DNA of 64,000 bases from assembly GCA_003223245.1 (NCBI GenBank), contig QHYI01000107.1, positions 1 to 64,000 of the forward strand, read 5' to 3'. This document shows, in pieces, positions 716 through 9,600 of this stretch. The stretch's first letter is position 1. Every line of letters begins with the position of its first letter. The stretch is from Acidobacteriota bacterium. GTDB lineage: Bacteria > Acidobacteriota > Terriglobia > Acidiferrales > UBA7541. Made by a program: the position numbers and the translations under genes. The notes beneath the pieces were generated by a model. The model worked only from the letters and a program-made list of their open reading frames with translations. It had not been told where the DNA came from and did no database searches.

Positions 716-1927
716 TCACGATTTCACCTTTCCGTCGCAGCAATCGCCCGGGGGAATGGGATTGCCATGCGGGCAGGTCTTCGGGTGGCCCAAGAAAGTG
801 CAAATGCGCGCGTCGAGTTCCGGGCTGATGATGTGTTCGAACCGGCACGCTTGCGTTTGCGCTTCGGTCTCGTCGACCGCAAAAGTGTCCTTGAACAAGC
901 GCTCCGCCAAACGATGGCGGCGCACCACATCGCGCGCGCGCTGGCTCCCTGCAGGAGTGAGTTGTGCTTCTCCATTTTGCAGCGCGACCAAATGCAGGTC
1001 CGCCATGCGCGCAAGAACGCGCGAGGCAGGTTCCTCGGGCACGGTCGAGAGTTTTCCGGAAGCTCCCGCAGCTCGCAGGCGCGCAACCTCGGCGGGCTTG
1101 CCTTCCTCGCCACAAACCCAAATTTGTTCCAGCAGGTGATCGAAGCGGATTTCGTCGTCGGTCGAGACGGACTTACAGCAATCTGGCGTGTCCACCAGCG
1201 GGCAATTGAGCGGCTGGCTGGGGCCGTGCAGCGCGGAGTCGAAATGCAGGTGGCCATGGGCCAGTTCAATGCGGCGGTCCGCCTGGCGCGCGATATCCGG
1301 GTCGTGCGTGACCATCAGAATGGTGTGCCCCGCGTTGTGCAGCTTGCGGAAAATCTCGATGACAATTCTTTCGTTGGCTTCGTCGAGATTGCCGGTGGGC
1401 TCGTCCGCAAGAATGAGCTTCGGTTGATTGATCAGTGCCCGCGCGATGGCCACGCGCTGCTGTTCTCCGCCGGAAAGCTGCGCGGGCAAATGCGTCAGGC
1501 GGTCGCCAAGGCCAACGCGCTTCAGCGCCTCTTCGGCCTCTTTTTCGTCGGTGACGCTGTGAAAATACTGAGCCAGCATCACGTTTTCGAGCGCGGTGAG
1601 ATACGGTACGAGGTGAAACTGCTGAAAAACAAAGCCCACTTTTTCTGCGCGGTAGCGAACCAAGTCGTTTTCGCTCAAATTCGCAAGATCCACGCCGTCA
1701 ACGATCACACGACCAGACGTGAGCGTGTCCAACCCCCCGAGAATGTTGATGAGCGTAGTCTTGCCCGAGCCCGAGGGACCCATGAGCGCGACCCATTCGC
1801 CGCCGTTGACCGCGAAGCTGACGCCATTGAGTGCGCGCAACGAGCCGTACTGCTTGATCAAATTGTCGATGACGACTTGCTGCGCCCCAGCGCGCGGCTG
1901 CAACTGGAGGGGAGCAACGACACTCAC
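716..1927 (-). CDS. ABC transporter ATP-binding protein (MacB/LolD-type) fused to a C-terminal DtxR/MntR-type metal-dependent regulator domain
   Basis: Walker [10 protein letters not shown], signature [15 protein letters not shown], Walker [14 protein letters not shown]-terminal part has wHTH-like region, [42 protein letters not shown] typical of DtxR. Confidence 0.9.
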
Positions 1928-3108
1928 GCTTCACCTCGGAATACGGATGCCGGGCGGAGGCTCGCCAGCCGCCGCAACGGGAAGGCGCTCAGAATGGCCA
2001 CCAGCATCGTCAAACCCACAGCTACAGGATACACAATCAGGCGCGGACGCGCCGCCACTCCAAAAACGGCCTTGCCTAAGGCGATAGAAAGCAAAATCCC
2101 GAGCGCTGCGCCGATTAAACCGCCCGCCAAGCCTAGCAGTGCCGCCTCCGCCAGGAAAAGGCGCACCACGCGGCGCGTTGCCCCGCCAATGGCCTTCATC
2201 AGACCCACATCCATCTTGCGCTCGATGGCCACGTTGGTCATGGCGGCCATGACGCACAGTGCGGTCAACAACAAAACGATGCCTACCGTTGCTGTCAGCA
2301 ATCCGCTGATGCGGCTGTAAATTTTTGCTTCGCCCTCTGTGAATTGGCGGATGGGACGAACGTCAACATCGGGAAGCCGTCGTTGAAGGTCCGCGATGTA
2401 CGTCTGGATTTCCCCGGGAGTGCCTGGAACGGTCAGCTCAACCATGCTAATGCGATCAGCAAGACCGGCCAGGCGTTGCGCGGCTGATAGGCCAATTTCA
2501 AGGCGGTTGTCCTCGGGTCCGCCGGTCTGGCGAATGCTGGCGACGCGGCACGATTCCCGGCGGTCGCTGCTGGTTAAGACGAGCGCTGTTCCCGGCTGCG
2601 CGCCCAGCTGCTGCGCGAATTTTGCACCTGCCACACATACATCTTGCGACGATGGGGTTGCTTCACTCAGGTTGCTCGCGGCAGCTGAAGAAGAGCGCAG
2701 CGAACCTTTGACAATACCTAGCGGATTCAATCCGGCAACAACCGCATTGACTGATTTTCCCGACTGCGGAACGGAAACATTGATGATCAGGTAGAGAGAC
2801 GATGACACGGTTACTCGACCACCGGGCAGGTTGCCGGGCACTCGGTCGATCGTGGACTCGCGTAACGTTCCAGAACTTGAACCAGAAGAACCTCTCGGAA
2901 CAAGCAGCACATTCGGCCCAAAAGCCCGAAATTCCGTGGTGAGACGGCGCTTGGCGTCCACCTGCAGATTGAGCAGAGCGGCGGTGACGGCGGCGCCGGC
3001 ACCGAGCGCCAGCAGCATGACGAAGAGCCGTCCGCGGTTGGCTCCCAGCAGCCGCCGCAGGATGCGCCAGAACATTGCACGATTGGTGTCTCTAAGCTCG
3101 GTCATCAT
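1924..3108 (-). CDS. FtsX-like ABC transporter permease (second permease)
   Basis: MMTELRDTNRAMFWRILRRLLGANRGR start, C-terminal FtsX-type TM block; overlaps neighbours by 4 nt. Confidence 0.85.
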   Translation of the reverse strand: MMTELRDTNRAMFWRILRRLLGANRGRLFVMLLALGAGAAVTAALLNLQVDAKRRLTTEFRAFGPNVLLVPRGSSGSSSGTLRESTIDRVPGNLPGGRVTVSSSLYLIINVSVPQSGKSVNAVVAGLNPLGIVKGSLRSSSAAASNLSEATPSSQDVCVAGAKFAQQLGAQPGTALVLTSSDRRESCRVASIRQTGGPEDNRLEIGLSAAQRLAGLADRISMVELTVPGTPGEIQTYIADLQRRLPDVDVRPIRQFTEGEAKIYSRISGLLTATVGIVLLLTALCVMAAMTNVAIERKMDVGLMKAIGGATRRVVRLFLAEAALLGLAGGLIGAALGILLSIALGKAVFGVAARPRLIVYPVAVGLTMLVAILSAFPLRRLASLRPASVFRGEA

Positions 3109-4418
3109 TCCCCTCGCAGGATTGGCGCCGGCTCCATGCGCGAAGCGCGGCGCAGCGGAATGGCGCTGCCGAGCAGCGTCACAACCGCAGCGAGCCCAAT
3201 CACCACGGAAAAGACCAGCAGGGTCGGCTCCGGTGCTGCACCGAAAATCTTTTCGCCCAGCAGGCGCGCCAAGACGATTCCCAGGGCATAACCAACACCT
3301 CCGCCCACAAACGCGAGCAGGAGTTGCTCCGCGGCAAGCAAGAAGCCAACCGTGCCGGAACCGGCGCCCAAGGCCTTCATCAAACCGATTTCGACCTGCC
3401 GCTCGATCACTGAGGCCGCCGACGAGGCACCAACCGCCAGCGCCGCAGCCAGCATGGCTGCGAGAGAGACCAGCCAAAGCAGCATTTCCACGTGCGTGAG
3501 GATCTGGCCTTCGCCTTCCGCGACACGGCGAATCACGCGCACATCGGTCCCCGGCAATTCCTGCTGAATCTGATACGCAATCGAAGAAATGTACGGCGTG
3601 CAGAACCATCGGTCGTATTCGGGGGGGGTCATCGTTTTCGGGTCTTTGCGCGCAAAGGCATCTTCCGGTTTCGTTAGAGCGCTGACGTAAAGTTTGCGGT
3701 ACTGCCCCGGCTTTCCGGCAAGCTCTTGAGCAATCGAAAGAGGCACGACAATGGCATCATCCTCCGGGCCTCCGCTGTCCAGAATCCCAACAATAGCCAG
3801 CGTCGGGCCAGGTTTGCCGTCGAGGTTGTACGTCAACAGGCCAGCGGAGCGGCTGATTCCGTTCTTCTGGGCAAAGTTCTTGCCTATTACGCACTCATTG
3901 TTTCCTTCGACGAACCAACGGCCTTCCACATGCCACCACGGATTCGTTTTTTCGATTCCCGTTACAAAGGTACCGCCATCAGGAAGTTTCACTTCGTGAT
4001 TTACCCAAGTTCCGAGAACCGGCATAAATGTAGGGACGCTCCGGTAGTCCAATACTAGCTTGTCCTTGGGATAGGTTGACGCTTTGACCTGGGCTTCCAA
4101 AACCGGCGCGAAGCCCATGATGTTGTTGTGCCAGAAAATCGTTTTGAGTTTCGGCAGGTCTGCTTCCGGCAGGTAAGCGCCTGCGTTCACCGGCCGATAA
4201 TCCACTCCGCCTATTTCGAGCGGCAGGGAATCGGCCTTCGGCGTGACTACCAGGTTCGCGCCCAGGCTGCGAAACTCCTTGGCGAGGCGGTCGCCGACAT
4301 CCAGCGCCACGCTGAGTGCCGCGGTGGCCACACCCATGCCCAAAGCCAGCGCCGCGCCAGTCAGCAGCTTGTGCCGCGGACGCCGCCCGAAAGAATCGGC
4401 CACGAGTCGTAGAAACAT
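3105..4418 (-). CDS. FtsX-like ABC transporter permease (first permease)
   Basis: N-terminal TM, periplasmic MacB-like region, C-terminal ERQVEIGLMKALGAGSGTVGFLLAAE block. Confidence 0.85.
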   Translation of the reverse strand: MFLRLVADSFGRRPRHKLLTGAALALGMGVATAALSVALDVGDRLAKEFRSLGANLVVTPKADSLPLEIGGVDYRPVNAGAYLPEADLPKLKTIFWHNNIMGFAPVLEAQVKASTYPKDKLVLDYRSVPTFMPVLGTWVNHEVKLPDGGTFVTGIEKTNPWWHVEGRWFVEGNNECVIGKNFAQKNGISRSAGLLTYNLDGKPGPTLAIVGILDSGGPEDDAIVVPLSIAQELAGKPGQYRKLYVSALTKPEDAFARKDPKTMTPPEYDRWFCTPYISSIAYQIQQELPGTDVRVIRRVAEGEGQILTHVEMLLWLVSLAAMLAAALAVGASSAASVIERQVEIGLMKALGAGSGTVGFLLAAEQLLLAFVGGGVGYALGIVLARLLGEKIFGAAPEPTLLVFSVVIGLAAVVTLLGSAIPLRRASRMEPAPILRGE

Positions 4419-4582: not shown

Positions 4583-5816
4583 CTATTTCGGAATCTCCGT
4601 AGACTCCTGAGCGAGGGCGGAAATGTCGATCACAATGTTGTCTTGATCGACGTGCGCGGGCACGCCGATAGGATTGCAGCCTCCCTGGTCGCCAATTGAG
4701 GGAATATAAATCGCCGAAGCGCAGTGCCGACAAATGACGTTCTGGCCGTCCTGGCGGTAACCTTCCGCGCCGCAAATCCGGCAGGCGTCCAGCGCCACGC
4801 CCCAGCCGTTCGGCTTCTTGATGACCATGAAGCGCAGGGACTGGCTGCCCGTACTGACCGTGAACAGATGCATAGCGCCGTCTTGCACCGCGCCGACAGG
4901 CACGCGCACGATGTTGCCAACGGGGTCAACCGGCTGAGCCGCTGGGGGCGCCGAATTTGCGCGCGCGTAAATGAAATCCGCGGTTAAAACCAGGATCACC
5001 GCCAGCGAAGCGGTCGCGGCGGCAAGCATCCAGCCACGCTGGCGCCGATTTTGCGATTCGAACAGGCGCTTTTCCGCGGCGTTCAGGGAATCCCGATCGA
5101 TTTTGGCCTGCGAAGCCGTCTGCCATTCCCGCAGAATCAGGAGGATCGCCGCGCCAAAAATGAAAACGAAGAAGAACAGCTCGTTGCGCACGACGGGTCC
5201 TAAAATGGCCATCTCGCCTTTGCTAGAAGGCAGCCACTGCGCCTCACTTAATTCGTGCAGGCCCGTCAAACCCAATTGAAAGGCCACGAGCATCAAGATG
5301 ACGCTGGTGGCCGCGAAGAACCGCTGCAGCGGAATGCGTAGCGTGCCTTTGAAAAAGAACAGTCCAACTGCAACCGCCGCGCCAATTCCGGCGATGGTGC
5401 CACTCCACAGCGCGCAGGATCAGCGCGAGTTCGGCGCCTTCGCGCAAAACCATCAGAAACACGAAGAGAAAAATGCCCCAGCCCGCGGCTTTTCCGGCCC
5501 GCTCGGCGTAGGACTCCACTTTTTCCTCAATTTCTTTTCGCAGGTGGCGCGCAACGCGGTTCATCCATACAATCATCGTAACCACGAAGACCGCGGCCAC
5601 CAGGAGCATCAGCCCCTCGAAGCCGTCTTCGCTGATGCGCCAGCGTTCCAGCCCCACCGCCACAGCCAGGCTAACAGCAGCGGCTGCCGCCAGGCCGTAC
5701 CAAACGAAGCGCGCCAACTGACGGCGGCCAGTGCGAGAGAGGTAGACCAGGATGATGCCGACCACGAGCGCCGCTTCCACACCTTCGCGAAGCGCGATAA
5801 GAAAAGCCGAAAGCAT
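4583..5816 (-). pseudogene. FTR1-family iron permease fused to DUF2318 Fe-S-like domain, frame-disrupted near 5400
   Basis: Frame 1 (from 5816) has REGVEAALVVGI and REGAELALIL; frame 2 (ORF 4583..5296 plus upstream in-frame TIAGIGAAVAVGLFFFKGTLRIP) continues FTR1 then CRICGAEGY...CRHCASAIYIPSIGDQGGCNPI of DUF2318. Confidence 0.8.
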
Positions 5817-5895
5817 GAGTTGTCCTGTAAGTCTAGTTGTAAGTCATTTGCAACTACAAGCTCGAGTTTACCTTAGCGGGACGCTCCTGGTCAAC

Positions 5896-5912
5896 CGGAC
5901 TAATTCAGTCCG
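5896..5912. promoter_or_regulatory. Palindromic operator CGGACTAATTCAGTCCG resembling an IscR/Rrf2 type-1 site
   Basis: Perfect CGGACT/AGTCCG inverted repeat; core GACTAATTCAGTC fits GACTrwwwyAGTC; about 80 bp upstream of the FTR1 start. Confidence 0.6.
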
Positions 5913-5952
5913 ATTTCTTAACCGGCAGGATAGGGTATTCTGTTTCTTACCC

Positions 5953-8900
5953 ATGGGCACGTTTCGCCAAGCCTTGTCCTTGACGCTCTCTAGCCTCTTT
6001 CTGTTTTCTCAAGCGTCCTTCGCTCAAGCAGTGCCTGCTTCTCTGCAGGCGCCCACTGCGCGCGTCCGGCCGGACCTCAAGCGCGCGCGCAAGGCCGCCG
6101 AACAGGGTGAGAAAGCAGAGGCCTCCGGGCATTTGGAGGATGCCTTGGCCGCTTACGAGGAAGCCGCGCGCTATGCTCCACAAGACACGCAGTTCGCAGC
6201 TCATGCCGAAGCGCTGCGCTCGAAGCTGGTTCGCTCCTACGCCGAGGCAGCGGAGCGGGACGCGATCGCAGGCCGGCTGGACCAGGCAACCGAGGACCTC
6301 GCGGCAGCGCTGGCAGTTGATGCAACGAACACTGCCGTCCTGGAGCGCTTGCGGGAAATGAAAAGCATGCGGGAACAGTCCCCGCCGAAGGTCGCCCCGG
6401 AAATTCCTGGATTGCCCAAGTTGAAACCGCAAGCTGGCAAGCATAGTCTCGACCTGCGGGGCGACACTAAAACGGTGTATGAACAACTGGCCGGCATTTT
6501 CGGCCTACGGGCTACCTTCGACCCTGACCTGATTGCTAGAAATGCGCGCTTGAATCTCAAAGATGTGGATTTCCGCGACGCCATAACGGTTCTTGCCACG
6601 GAGACCGAAACTTTTTGGCGTCCGGTGAATGCCACATTGTTCTTTGTCGCCCAAGACACGTCAGAAAAGCGGCGCGAGTATGATTTGGAAGCGGAGCAGA
6701 CTTTTCCTCTTTCATCCGCTAACACTTCCGAGGATGCCACGGAAGTTTTGCGCATCCTGCGCGATATCACCGGCTCCACGCGCATAACTCTTGACGCGAA
6801 TAGTCACAGCCTTACCATGCGCGATACTCCGCAGCGGCTGGCCCTTGCTGGCGAGCTCATCCAGCAGATGGAGAGGGCGCGCGGCGAATTGCTACTTGAA
6901 ATTGAGCTGCTGGAAGTCGACCGCAACACCGCGACGAAACTCGGCATCGAACCTCCCACCAGGCAGAGATTAATTGCAATTCCTCCCAACTTGATCAGCC
7001 AGTTGAACCAAGCAAGCAATCTGTCGGCGCTCCAAACGCTTTTAGCCGGAATTTTTGGAACCGCCGCCACCGGCAGCACTTCGATCAGCTCCCTGATTCC
7101 TCCGCTCGTTGCTATTGGCGGCGGCAACTCCACGTTTCTCCTGACTCTTCCCGCAGCAGCGGCAGACTTCTCCGATGCGCTGTCGCTGGTAGAAAGCGGC
7201 CGCGAAGTTCTCCTGCGCGCGCAAGATGGGAAGCCGGCTACCTTTTTCGTCGGTCAGCGCTATCCGGTCACGCTTTCCCTACTTTCCGGCAGCCTGGGAA
7301 CTTCTTCCTTTACGCCGAGTCCAGGGGGAGTGAGCAATCCTTTTCCCAGCACTTCCTATCCCGCCGGAACCGGCCCGGCCGCGCTGGTGGCTGCGGATTT
7401 TATGAATAATGGTTTATCGGATTTGGCAGCAGTCAACGAAATCGACAACTCGATTACGGTTCTATTGAACCAGAGCAGCAATCAGGGAACATTTGCCCAG
7501 GCTACGGGTTCCCCCATCTCGCTCGGGACTTCTCGCGCCGCAGCCCCGGCAACTCATCCGGGAATAGCTTCGGCAACGTTTACCAGCAGTGGGTGCCACG
7601 ATTTGATCGCCAGCGATCCCCTGGCGAACTTGGTGAACGTACTGTTCAGCAATTGCGACGGGACGTTTCAGAAGCCCGTCGCCATTCCCGTGGGTTTCAA
7701 CCCGGGTGCGCTTGCCACGGGCGACTTCAACGGTGATGGACACCAGGATTTTGCAGTGGCTAACGAAGGCGACGACACGGTCTCGATTTTTCTTGGCGAT
7801 GGCACCGGAAAGTTTACGCCCGCGAAGAATTCTCCTTTTCTTTTCGCGCCGCAACTCATGATCCGCACGACCTCACTTCCTGACGGTGTTCTGAATGCCG
7901 CTTACAACGCAACGGTGCAATCGACCGGAGGAACCGGGGCGGTGGCCTGGAGTTTGGCGACGGGGACGCTTCCAGCGGGCCTGGCTTTGGATCCCAGCAC
8001 GGGCGCCATTTCGGGCACGCCAACGGCAGCGGGAACATCACCAATTACGGTGAAGGTGACCGATTCCGCCACGCCTCCGAGTTCCGTTACCACCCGACTG
8101 AGTATTACGGTCAACACTGCCGCTCCGACTTTTGCGATTTCTACTTCATCACTCCCGAACGGAAACCTTGCGACGCCCTACGACCAGGTCCTGACGGTTA
8201 CCGGGGGAACCTCCCCATTTACCTGGAGCATTTCATCCGGATCGCTTCCGGCGGGCTTAAGTCTGAACGCCAAGACCGGTGAAATGACCGGCGCTTCGAC
8301 AGCCGCGACAGTTGGCGCAAGTTCCACTTTTGTGGTAGCAGTCACAGATTCCAGCGCCCCACCCTTAACTGCGCAAAAGCAGTTTACCTTGACGCCCTTC
8401 ACTGCCGCGGAGCGGGGCCCGGTGGCAATGGTGATGAATGACTTTAATGCGGATGGCAACCAGGACCTGGCCATCGTCAATCAAGCGACCGACAACGTGA
8501 GCATCCTCTTGGGTCATGGCGACGGGACGTTTGCAGAAGCCACCGGCTCGCCCATTTCCTCGGGCATTGGCAAAGCTCCCGTGGCCATCGCCGCCGGCGA
8601 TTTAAATGGCGACGCCAAGCCGGATCTTGCGGTCGTGAATCAAACCGATAACACCGTCAGCGTTTTGCTGAACAACGGGGACGCCACCTTTGCGCCGGGA
8701 CCCTCGCCGCTTCTGCAAACAGCTGCGTCACCCACGGGCGTGGCGATCGCCGACTTCAATCAAGACGGCCACGCGGATATCGCGGTGACCAACGGGGGAG
8801 CCAACACCTTTCGTGTATTCGTGGGCCTGAGCGGCGGACTGTTTAGCTTAGCCTTCGAGCCACCGGCAGGTCCCCCTGGTTCTACGCCAACCGCCATCGT

Positions 8901-9600
8901 TGCGGGGGCTTTTGCGACGGGCGGATTCCCGGATGTGGCGATCACCAATGACGTGTCGGGGGCGGCGGGCGATGTCACTGTGGTTTTGAGTCCAGCCAGT
9001 CTTTTTTCCAATGGGGTAGCCCCGGGGGTCCTGCAACAGCCCTACCCCGCCTCGGAATACGTCGATCTCGGTTTGAAGATCAAAGCTACGCCGACACTTC
9101 ACCCCGACAGCGAAGTAACCTTGCAGTTGGAATTTGAAATCCGCGCTCTTTCCGGTAGCAGTGTAAACGGCATCCCCATCCTTTCGAATCGCACGTTATC
9201 GCAAACTGTGCGTGTGAAGGAAAACGAACCGACGCTCATTAGCGGAATGACCGACCGGGAAGAAACTCGCTCTATCGTCGGCTTACCCGGATTCGCGGAA
9301 ATTCCCGGCGTAAGATATGCCTTCAGCTCAAAAAGCCAGTCGTTGCAAGACACGGACTTGCTCATCGTGGTTACCCCGCGCAGACTACGGCTGGCGGACC
9401 ACATTACACGTACGATCTACGCCGGGCGCGGTGAAATTCAAGGCGGCGCTGCTGGATTTCGTGGAGTTCCTGCACCGACACTGCCGCAACAACCGCGACA
9501 ACCGCAACCCGAACGACCGCTTGAGCAACCGCCGCTCCAGCAGCAGCCGCCTCAGCAACAGCCCCAGCCGCAGCCTCAACAGCAACCGGAGAAGCCCTAG
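5953..9600 (+). CDS. Secretin (type II/IV pilus-type) with TPR N-terminus and inserted FG-GAP/VCBS and Ig-like domains
   Basis: Signal-like MGTFRQALSLTLSSLFLFSQASFA; secretin N-region; DFNGDGxxDxAVxN repeats; GVxLKxTPxL...VRVKENEPTLISGMTDREETRSIVGLPGFAEIPGV secretin C-terminus. Confidence 0.85.
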   Translation: MGTFRQALSLTLSSLFLFSQASFAQAVPASLQAPTARVRPDLKRARKAAEQGEKAEASGHLEDALAAYEEAARYAPQDTQFAAHAEALRSKLVRSYAEAAERDAIAGRLDQATEDLAAALAVDATNTAVLERLREMKSMREQSPPKVAPEIPGLPKLKPQAGKHSLDLRGDTKTVYEQLAGIFGLRATFDPDLIARNARLNLKDVDFRDAITVLATETETFWRPVNATLFFVAQDTSEKRREYDLEAEQTFPLSSANTSEDATEVLRILRDITGSTRITLDANSHSLTMRDTPQRLALAGELIQQMERARGELLLEIELLEVDRNTATKLGIEPPTRQRLIAIPPNLISQLNQASNLSALQTLLAGIFGTAATGSTSISSLIPPLVAIGGGNSTFLLTLPAAAADFSDALSLVESGREVLLRAQDGKPATFFVGQRYPVTLSLLSGSLGTSSFTPSPGGVSNPFPSTSYPAGTGPAALVAADFMNNGLSDLAAVNEIDNSITVLLNQSSNQGTFAQATGSPISLGTSRAAAPATHPGIASATFTSSGCHDLIASDPLANLVNVLFSNCDGTFQKPVAIPVGFNPGALATGDFNGDGHQDFAVANEGDDTVSIFLGDGTGKFTPAKNSPFLFAPQLMIRTTSLPDGVLNAAYNATVQSTGGTGAVAWSLATGTLPAGLALDPSTGAISGTPTAAGTSPITVKVTDSATPPSSVTTRLSITVNTAAPTFAISTSSLPNGNLATPYDQVLTVTGGTSPFTWSISSGSLPAGLSLNAKTGEMTGASTAATVGASSTFVVAVTDSSAPPLTAQKQFTLTPFTAAERGPVAMVMNDFNADGNQDLAIVNQATDNVSILLGHGDGTFAEATGSPISSGIGKAPVAIAAGDLNGDAKPDLAVVNQTDNTVSVLLNNGDATFAPGPSPLLQTAASPTGVAIADFNQDGHADIAVTNGGANTFRVFVGLSGGLFSLAFEPPAGPPGSTPTAIVAGAFATGGFPDVAITNDVSGAAGDVTVVLSPASLFSNGVAPGVLQQPYPASEYVDLGLKIKATPTLHPDSEVTLQLEFEIRALSGSSVNGIPILSNRTLSQTVRVKENEPTLISGMTDREETRSIVGLPGFAEIPGVRYAFSSKSQSLQDTDLLIVVTPRRLRLADHITRTIYAGRGEIQGGAAGFRGVPAPTLPQQPRQPQPERPLEQPPLQQQPPQQQPQPQPQQQPEKP

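Follow-up and report, generated by a model that had tools for sequence, protein, structure and literature searches.

The window, by which we mean the whole stretch of 64,000 nucleotides analyzed here, belongs to a host genome of 6.3 Mb in 237 contigs and carries an iron-import operon on its minus strand. The operon starts with the N-terminal part of an FTR1 iron permease (5244 to 5816, minus strand; PF03239), whose frame is broken, and continues with the rest of the FTR1/FtrD-like frame, an Fe-S membrane protein (4583 to 5296, minus strand; PF10080). Relatives have one FTR1-FtrD frame of ~430 aa; compared with them, the FTR1 frame of the window shows a 29-bp gap at about 5400 on the minus strand, which is either a real deletion or an assembly error. 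The other members, all on the minus strand, are an FtsX/MacB-like permease (3105 to 4418; PF02687 and PF12704), a second FtsX-like permease taken from the open reading frame list only, with an approximate start (1924 to 3108), and an ABC ATPase with a C-terminal DtxR-type metal-binding/dimerization domain (716 to 1927; PF00005 and PF02742). The presence of a DtxR-family domain (PF02742, 97 bits) on an ABC-type ATPase suggests a possible built-in metal sensor. Divergent from the operon, on the plus strand, lies a gene for a secretin-domain protein (5953 to 9600; PF00263, PF03958, PF13517, and PF05345), with FG-GAP and Ig-like inserts noted in the copy of the window. Of 42 FTR1 loci compared (L133 to L174), 41 encode a secretin-domain protein in the divergent position, even where identity falls to ~37%.

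Between the two divergent genes, at 5896 to 5912, we found the perfect palindrome CGGACTAATTCAGTCCG, with no strand assigned to it, which has 6-bp arms around a 5-nt center and a core, GACTAATTCAGTC, at 5898 to 5910. An imperfect 23-bp extension with one mismatched arm pair, AACCGGACTAATTCAGTCCGATT, spans 5893 to 5915. The sequence and coordinates of the inverted repeat and its extension are exactly those of the first-pass annotation, and its distances also agree with ours: the site is 79 nt from the FTR1 ATG (5816) and 40 nt from the secretin ATG (5953). The palindrome by itself is no evidence of function because such repeats are common, with 30 perfect repeats of 6-bp arms and a 5-nt loop in the window, versus 22 +/- 6 in a Markov control. 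The claimed fit of the core to the Escherichia coli IscR type-1 consensus was borne out, as the word GACTRWWWYAGTC has a single exact match in the 64-kb window, with 0 expected, and that match is the site at 5896 to 5912. We treat it as a predicted Rrf2-type operator on the combined basis of the sequence scan, the FTR1 promoters of relatives, and the rrf2-isc promoter described below.

The site lies next to a putative promoter. On the minus strand, the order is the operator, 1 bp, TTGACC-18-TAAACT, and then the FTR1 start, with the -35 hexamer TTGACC at 5889 to 5894 and the -10 hexamer TAAACT at 5865 to 5870. This is the sole promoter-like match in the region (9/12 consensus positions with an 18-nt spacer), and both TTGAC and TAAACT are conserved in the alignment of FTR1 upstream regions.

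It is important to consider how the motif is distributed outside this locus. Genome-wide, the loose word GACTN5AGTC is not enriched (35 occurrences versus 47 for the reversed control), and CGGACYN5RGTCCG shows no excess over its reversed control in 36 genomes. Thus, the informative part of the motif is its placement only. The 36 same-genus genomes together contain GACTRWWWYAGTC 48 times and the reversed pattern 21 times, and 33 of the 48 occurrences of GACTRWWWYAGTC fall at three targets: isc (23), FTR1 (5), and a gene for an outer-membrane-like protein (5). Apart from a few intergenic matches, the others lie mostly within open reading frames, and the intergenic ones (at a Crp/Fnr gene in G034 and G035 and at single genes in G015 and G031) were set aside, having no wider recurrence. 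In G034 and G035, the sequence GACTATTTCAGTC is found 52 to 58 bp upstream of the Crp/Fnr-type regulator (L175:869 and L194:2029).

At the FTR1 promoter, GACYN5RGTC was found in 22 of 29 same-genus upstream regions and in none of the 29 reversed controls; the conservation of the motif upstream of orthologous FTR1 genes, on which its regulatory reading depended, is therefore real within the genus, and FTR1 loci outside the genus have no such site. The same-genus alignment shows invariant GAC and GTC, an inner pair that is Y/R (T..A or C..G), and a variable 5-nt center, with the site usually placed directly 5' of the -35 box. Seven of the 29 promoters in the genus and all the more distant FTR1 loci compared are without it. 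When mapped onto a tree of FTR1 proteins from 40 loci, the distribution of the site needs about three changes (3 to 4 in bootstraps; shuffled mean, 13.7), which is best read as acquisition in the ancestor of the genus followed by losses. One locus, L150 (identical to L030), has its site between the -35 and -10 hexamers with the promoter spacing unchanged, and its sister, L148, has the same promoter and no site. We infer that the L150 site was re-invented in a position where an obstructing repressor would act. A further locus, L167, titled Betaproteobacteria bacterium (CAJCHZ010000007.1), falls inside the acidobacterial FTR1 clade and has the same promoter, and it is probably a mislabeled assembly.

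The genome of the window has a candidate regulator gene for the site, a single Rrf2 gene, located on a different contig from FTR1, directly ahead of an IscS-like cysteine desulfurase gene, so that it heads the iscS operon. Its own promoter carries two matches, GACTATCTTAGTC and GACTAGAACGGTC, and the start of the gene holds a third. This third GACTN5AGTC overlaps the rrf2 start (L001:1908, G000:C148) in the genome of the window only, and it may be a chance match or a strain-specific extra site. The expected association of the motif with Fe-S genes was found throughout: GACYN5RGTC precedes all 27 Fe-S-linked rrf2 genes in the genus (consensus GACTGATTCAGTC), mostly as two sites ~108 bp apart in the rrf2-iscS promoters, and all 18 rrf2 promoters of Fe-S assembly operons examined in the wider class, where the proteins are 51 to 70% identical. 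In one of the latter (L263), the gene after rrf2 looks like SufB, and the cluster is apparently of the SUF type. This conservation at promoters of rrf2 itself is the strongest link of the motif to a candidate regulator. The outer bases of the sites are different, FTR1 sites favoring GGAC..GTCC and proximal isc sites CGAC..GTCG, and affinity could therefore differ between the two. Additionally, three loci (L048, L056, and L060) carry another Rrf2 gene, which differs from the first, lies about 15 kb away from FTR1, and has no motif upstream.

Domain scores place this protein within the Rrf2 family but outside the IscR, NsrR, and RirA equivalogs. It matches the Rrf2 domain PF02082 with 117.9 bits (gathering score, 30) and narrowly passes TIGR02944, the SUF-system Fe-S assembly regulator (112.2 versus a cut-off of 110.65). 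In contrast, it falls far short of the IscR equivalogs (TIGR02010, 74.3 versus 207.55; NF008110, 61.5 versus 275) and of the RirA equivalog (NF008886, 63.1 versus 193), and it did not match the NsrR equivalog. Three cysteines corresponding to the cluster ligands C92, C98, and C104 of E. coli IscR are present in 27/27 genus Rrf2 proteins. The H107 ligand is replaced by K or R in these 27 proteins, and the DNA-contact residues S40, E43, Q44, and R59 by T/M, A, K, and H in every one of them. Position 8 is Asp in all 27; in NsrR, an Asp at position 8 is the fourth [4Fe-4S] ligand (PMC5411485). Consequently, of the description of the site as an IscR/Rrf2-like operator, the Rrf2 part is supported, given the motif at every Fe-S-linked rrf2 promoter examined, and IscR proper is not, given the equivalog scores and residues. 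The regulator fits a TIGR02944/RisR-like Rrf2 protein rather than an IscR equivalog.

The third target is a gene for a secreted protein of ~305 aa (L184:2019-2927; L195 to L222) with no match in Pfam, NCBIfam, or PDB, whose outer-membrane-like assignment is our reading of its sequence. In 20 of 28 genomes, its promoter has an Rrf2-type site over the -10 hexamer, typically GACTAAGTTAGTC, and Fur-like boxes adjoin that site. In the genome of the window itself (G000:C55:210-1052, L211), the site is degenerate (GACTAAATTAATC).

A second palindrome, AGTTGTAAGTCATTTGCAACT, absent from the first-pass annotation, lies at 5835 to 5855 (no strand assigned; 0.01 expected), just downstream of the -10 hexamer and before the FTR1 start. 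Fur-family 7-1-7 boxes are 17- to 21-bp AT-centered palindromes placed to block transcription, and AGTTGTAAGTCATTTGCAACT resembles them in being an AT-centered palindrome at iron genes with such a placement. It differs in its half-site, which is TTGCAA here and GATAAT in E. coli. Distant FTR1 loci that have no Rrf2-type site still keep the box, so that its conservation reaches deeper than that of the operator. Its 17-bp core (allowing one mismatch) occurs four times in the genome and not once in the control. Of these four boxes, one is at FTR1 and another at the outer-membrane-like gene; the other two, which are within open reading frames, look like chance matches and were discarded. Genes of the fur family were found in 34 of 36 genus genomes, the genome of the window encoding two Fur-family proteins, and together with the AT-centered 17-bp shape, they suggest a Fur-family repressor, for which AGTTGTAAGTCATTTGCAACT is a predicted site.

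Sequence comparison shows that the motif is shared and conserved, where it lies and with what geometry, and that a second box is present; from this we infer which protein binds, that it represses, that repression depends on the cluster, and that Fur is a second factor. The Fe-S-sensing regulator of the cell very probably binds at the palindrome at 5896 to 5912. The full model, in which cluster-loaded Rrf2 represses the FTR1 operon and is released on Fe-S shortage, beside a Fur-family switch, is one that we hold with good confidence. The operator would be bound by the genome's single Rrf2-family Fe-S assembly regulator, whose gene opens the iscS operon. As long as Fe-S clusters are in ample supply, the dimer carrying its cluster would occupy the operator, with its center near -46 and its footprint over the -35 box, and the FTR1-FtrD-FtsX-ABC iron-import operon would be repressed. 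When the supply of iron or Fe-S fails, the cluster would be lost, and import and isc would be derepressed and induced together. A Fur-family repressor at 5835 to 5855 would add a parallel ferrous-iron signal. Against this model stand the FTR1 promoters without the site, both in the genus and beyond it, a center near -46 that would suit an activator as well, and the lack of conservation of the recognition-helix residues of E. coli IscR.

The last two points lead to an alternative that we consider unlikely, in which the same Rrf2 protein binds and either activates FTR1 from a class-II-like position near -46 or acts as the apo form. Apo-IscR acts at type-2 sites in E. coli. The usual place of the site, directly 5' of the -35 box, is compatible with activation, and with Ala at IscR position 43 and other contact residues lost, either form could bind. 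However, the site in the promoter spacer of L030/L150 occupies a repression position and therefore indicates repression; the sites overlapping -10 at the outer-membrane-like gene and the proximal isc sites downstream of their promoter are also repression positions, and RisR is a holo repressor. That another dimeric regulator with a similar GAC/GTC half-site is involved, the likeness to the isc motif being convergent, seems quite unlikely. The outer bases of the FTR1 and isc sites do differ, and the presence of Rrf2 in the same genomes tells nothing, since almost every genome of the genus (35 of 36) has the gene, but the half-site, spacing, and Y/R inner position are the same as at rrf2 promoters across the class, and GGAC is found in some isc sites too.

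The same comparisons bear on explanations that would detach the palindrome from FTR1. The secretin start is near the site, and the divergent arrangement is very widely kept, as expected if the palindrome served mainly the secretin gene. Yet the operator-promoter geometry is fixed on the FTR1 side, whereas the distance to the secretin is variable; furthermore, since the secretin is kept in loci with and without the Rrf2-type site, the secretin as operator target has no evidence behind it, and we regard this reading as very unlikely. A chance inverted repeat or a terminator-like hairpin has next to no probability. Repeats of the same shape are numerous in the window, and a terminator-like call was made in the scan, but conservation in 22/29 versus 0/29 upstream regions, a location between two divergent starts, which is an implausible place for a terminator, and the promoter-linked position kept in L150 all oppose it; the terminator reading was rejected on position and conservation.

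The proposed repression by cluster-loaded Rrf2 has its closest parallel in RisR of Myxococcus xanthus, an Fe-S assembly Rrf2 repressor with a GAC-N7-GTC operator overlapping promoter hexamers and without the conserved base-contact residues of E. coli IscR. In footprints, RisR covers TtGAC-N7-GTCC over -35/-10. Its holo form is the repressor, and repression is lifted by an iron chelator and by oxidative stress; the group of RisR, Rrf2 group IS6, is reported to include Acidobacteria (PMC9973013). The operator flanks of that group are T(t/g) ... C(t/a), and the geometry is identical here, with flanks partly alike. Since the geometry is that of RisR, we describe the site as a RisR-like Rrf2 operator with an additional match to the IscR type-1 word. 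The described targets of RisR are isc and suf (PMC9973013), whereas here the iron importer and the outer-membrane-like gene are included as well. With E. coli IscR, the system shares the GACTRWWWYAGTC word, a gene ahead of iscS, three conserved cysteines, and autoregulatory sites, but it differs in its scores far under the IscR cut-offs and in the replaced H107 and S40/E43/Q44/R59.

RirA of rhizobia is an Fe-S Rrf2 regulator controlling iron acquisition, from which the present protein differs in its score (63 versus 193) and in being isc linked. RirA is named an iron regulator (PMC9338935), and in Caulobacter, there are promoters common to IscR and Fur (PMC11475020). The Caulobacter overlap is similar in having promoters with both an Fe-S Rrf2 regulator and Fur, but it involves a proteobacterial IscR with conserved contact residues and other motifs. 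Rrf2 control of iron acquisition is thus already known in kind (RirA; Caulobacter IscR-Fur, PMC11475020), and for Rrf2 control of FTR1, or in Acidobacteriota, we found no report on point in the literature consulted.

For an uncultured and abundant soil phylum, these results define an operator and put forward an Fe-S/iron regulon that can be tested. They would carry the RisR-type operator beyond Fe-S assembly, to iron import, and they propose that an uncharacterized outer-membrane-like family takes part in iron uptake. Furthermore, a single promoter provides a natural series in which an operator is gained, lost, and re-sited. We give about even chances to the broader interpretation that, in gp2 Acidobacteriota (Candidatus Acidiferrales), a RisR-type repressor was recruited within one genus onto a promoter with an ancient Fur-like box, so that import would be switched by two separate signals, ferrous iron and Fe-S supply; the outer-membrane-like protein, whose gene bears the same pair of sites, would be a likely new component of the import route. 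The chief interest is that this promoter of an uncultured phylum offers a clean and testable candidate for dual control, in a lineage that appears to tie iron import to the success of its Fe-S cluster making.
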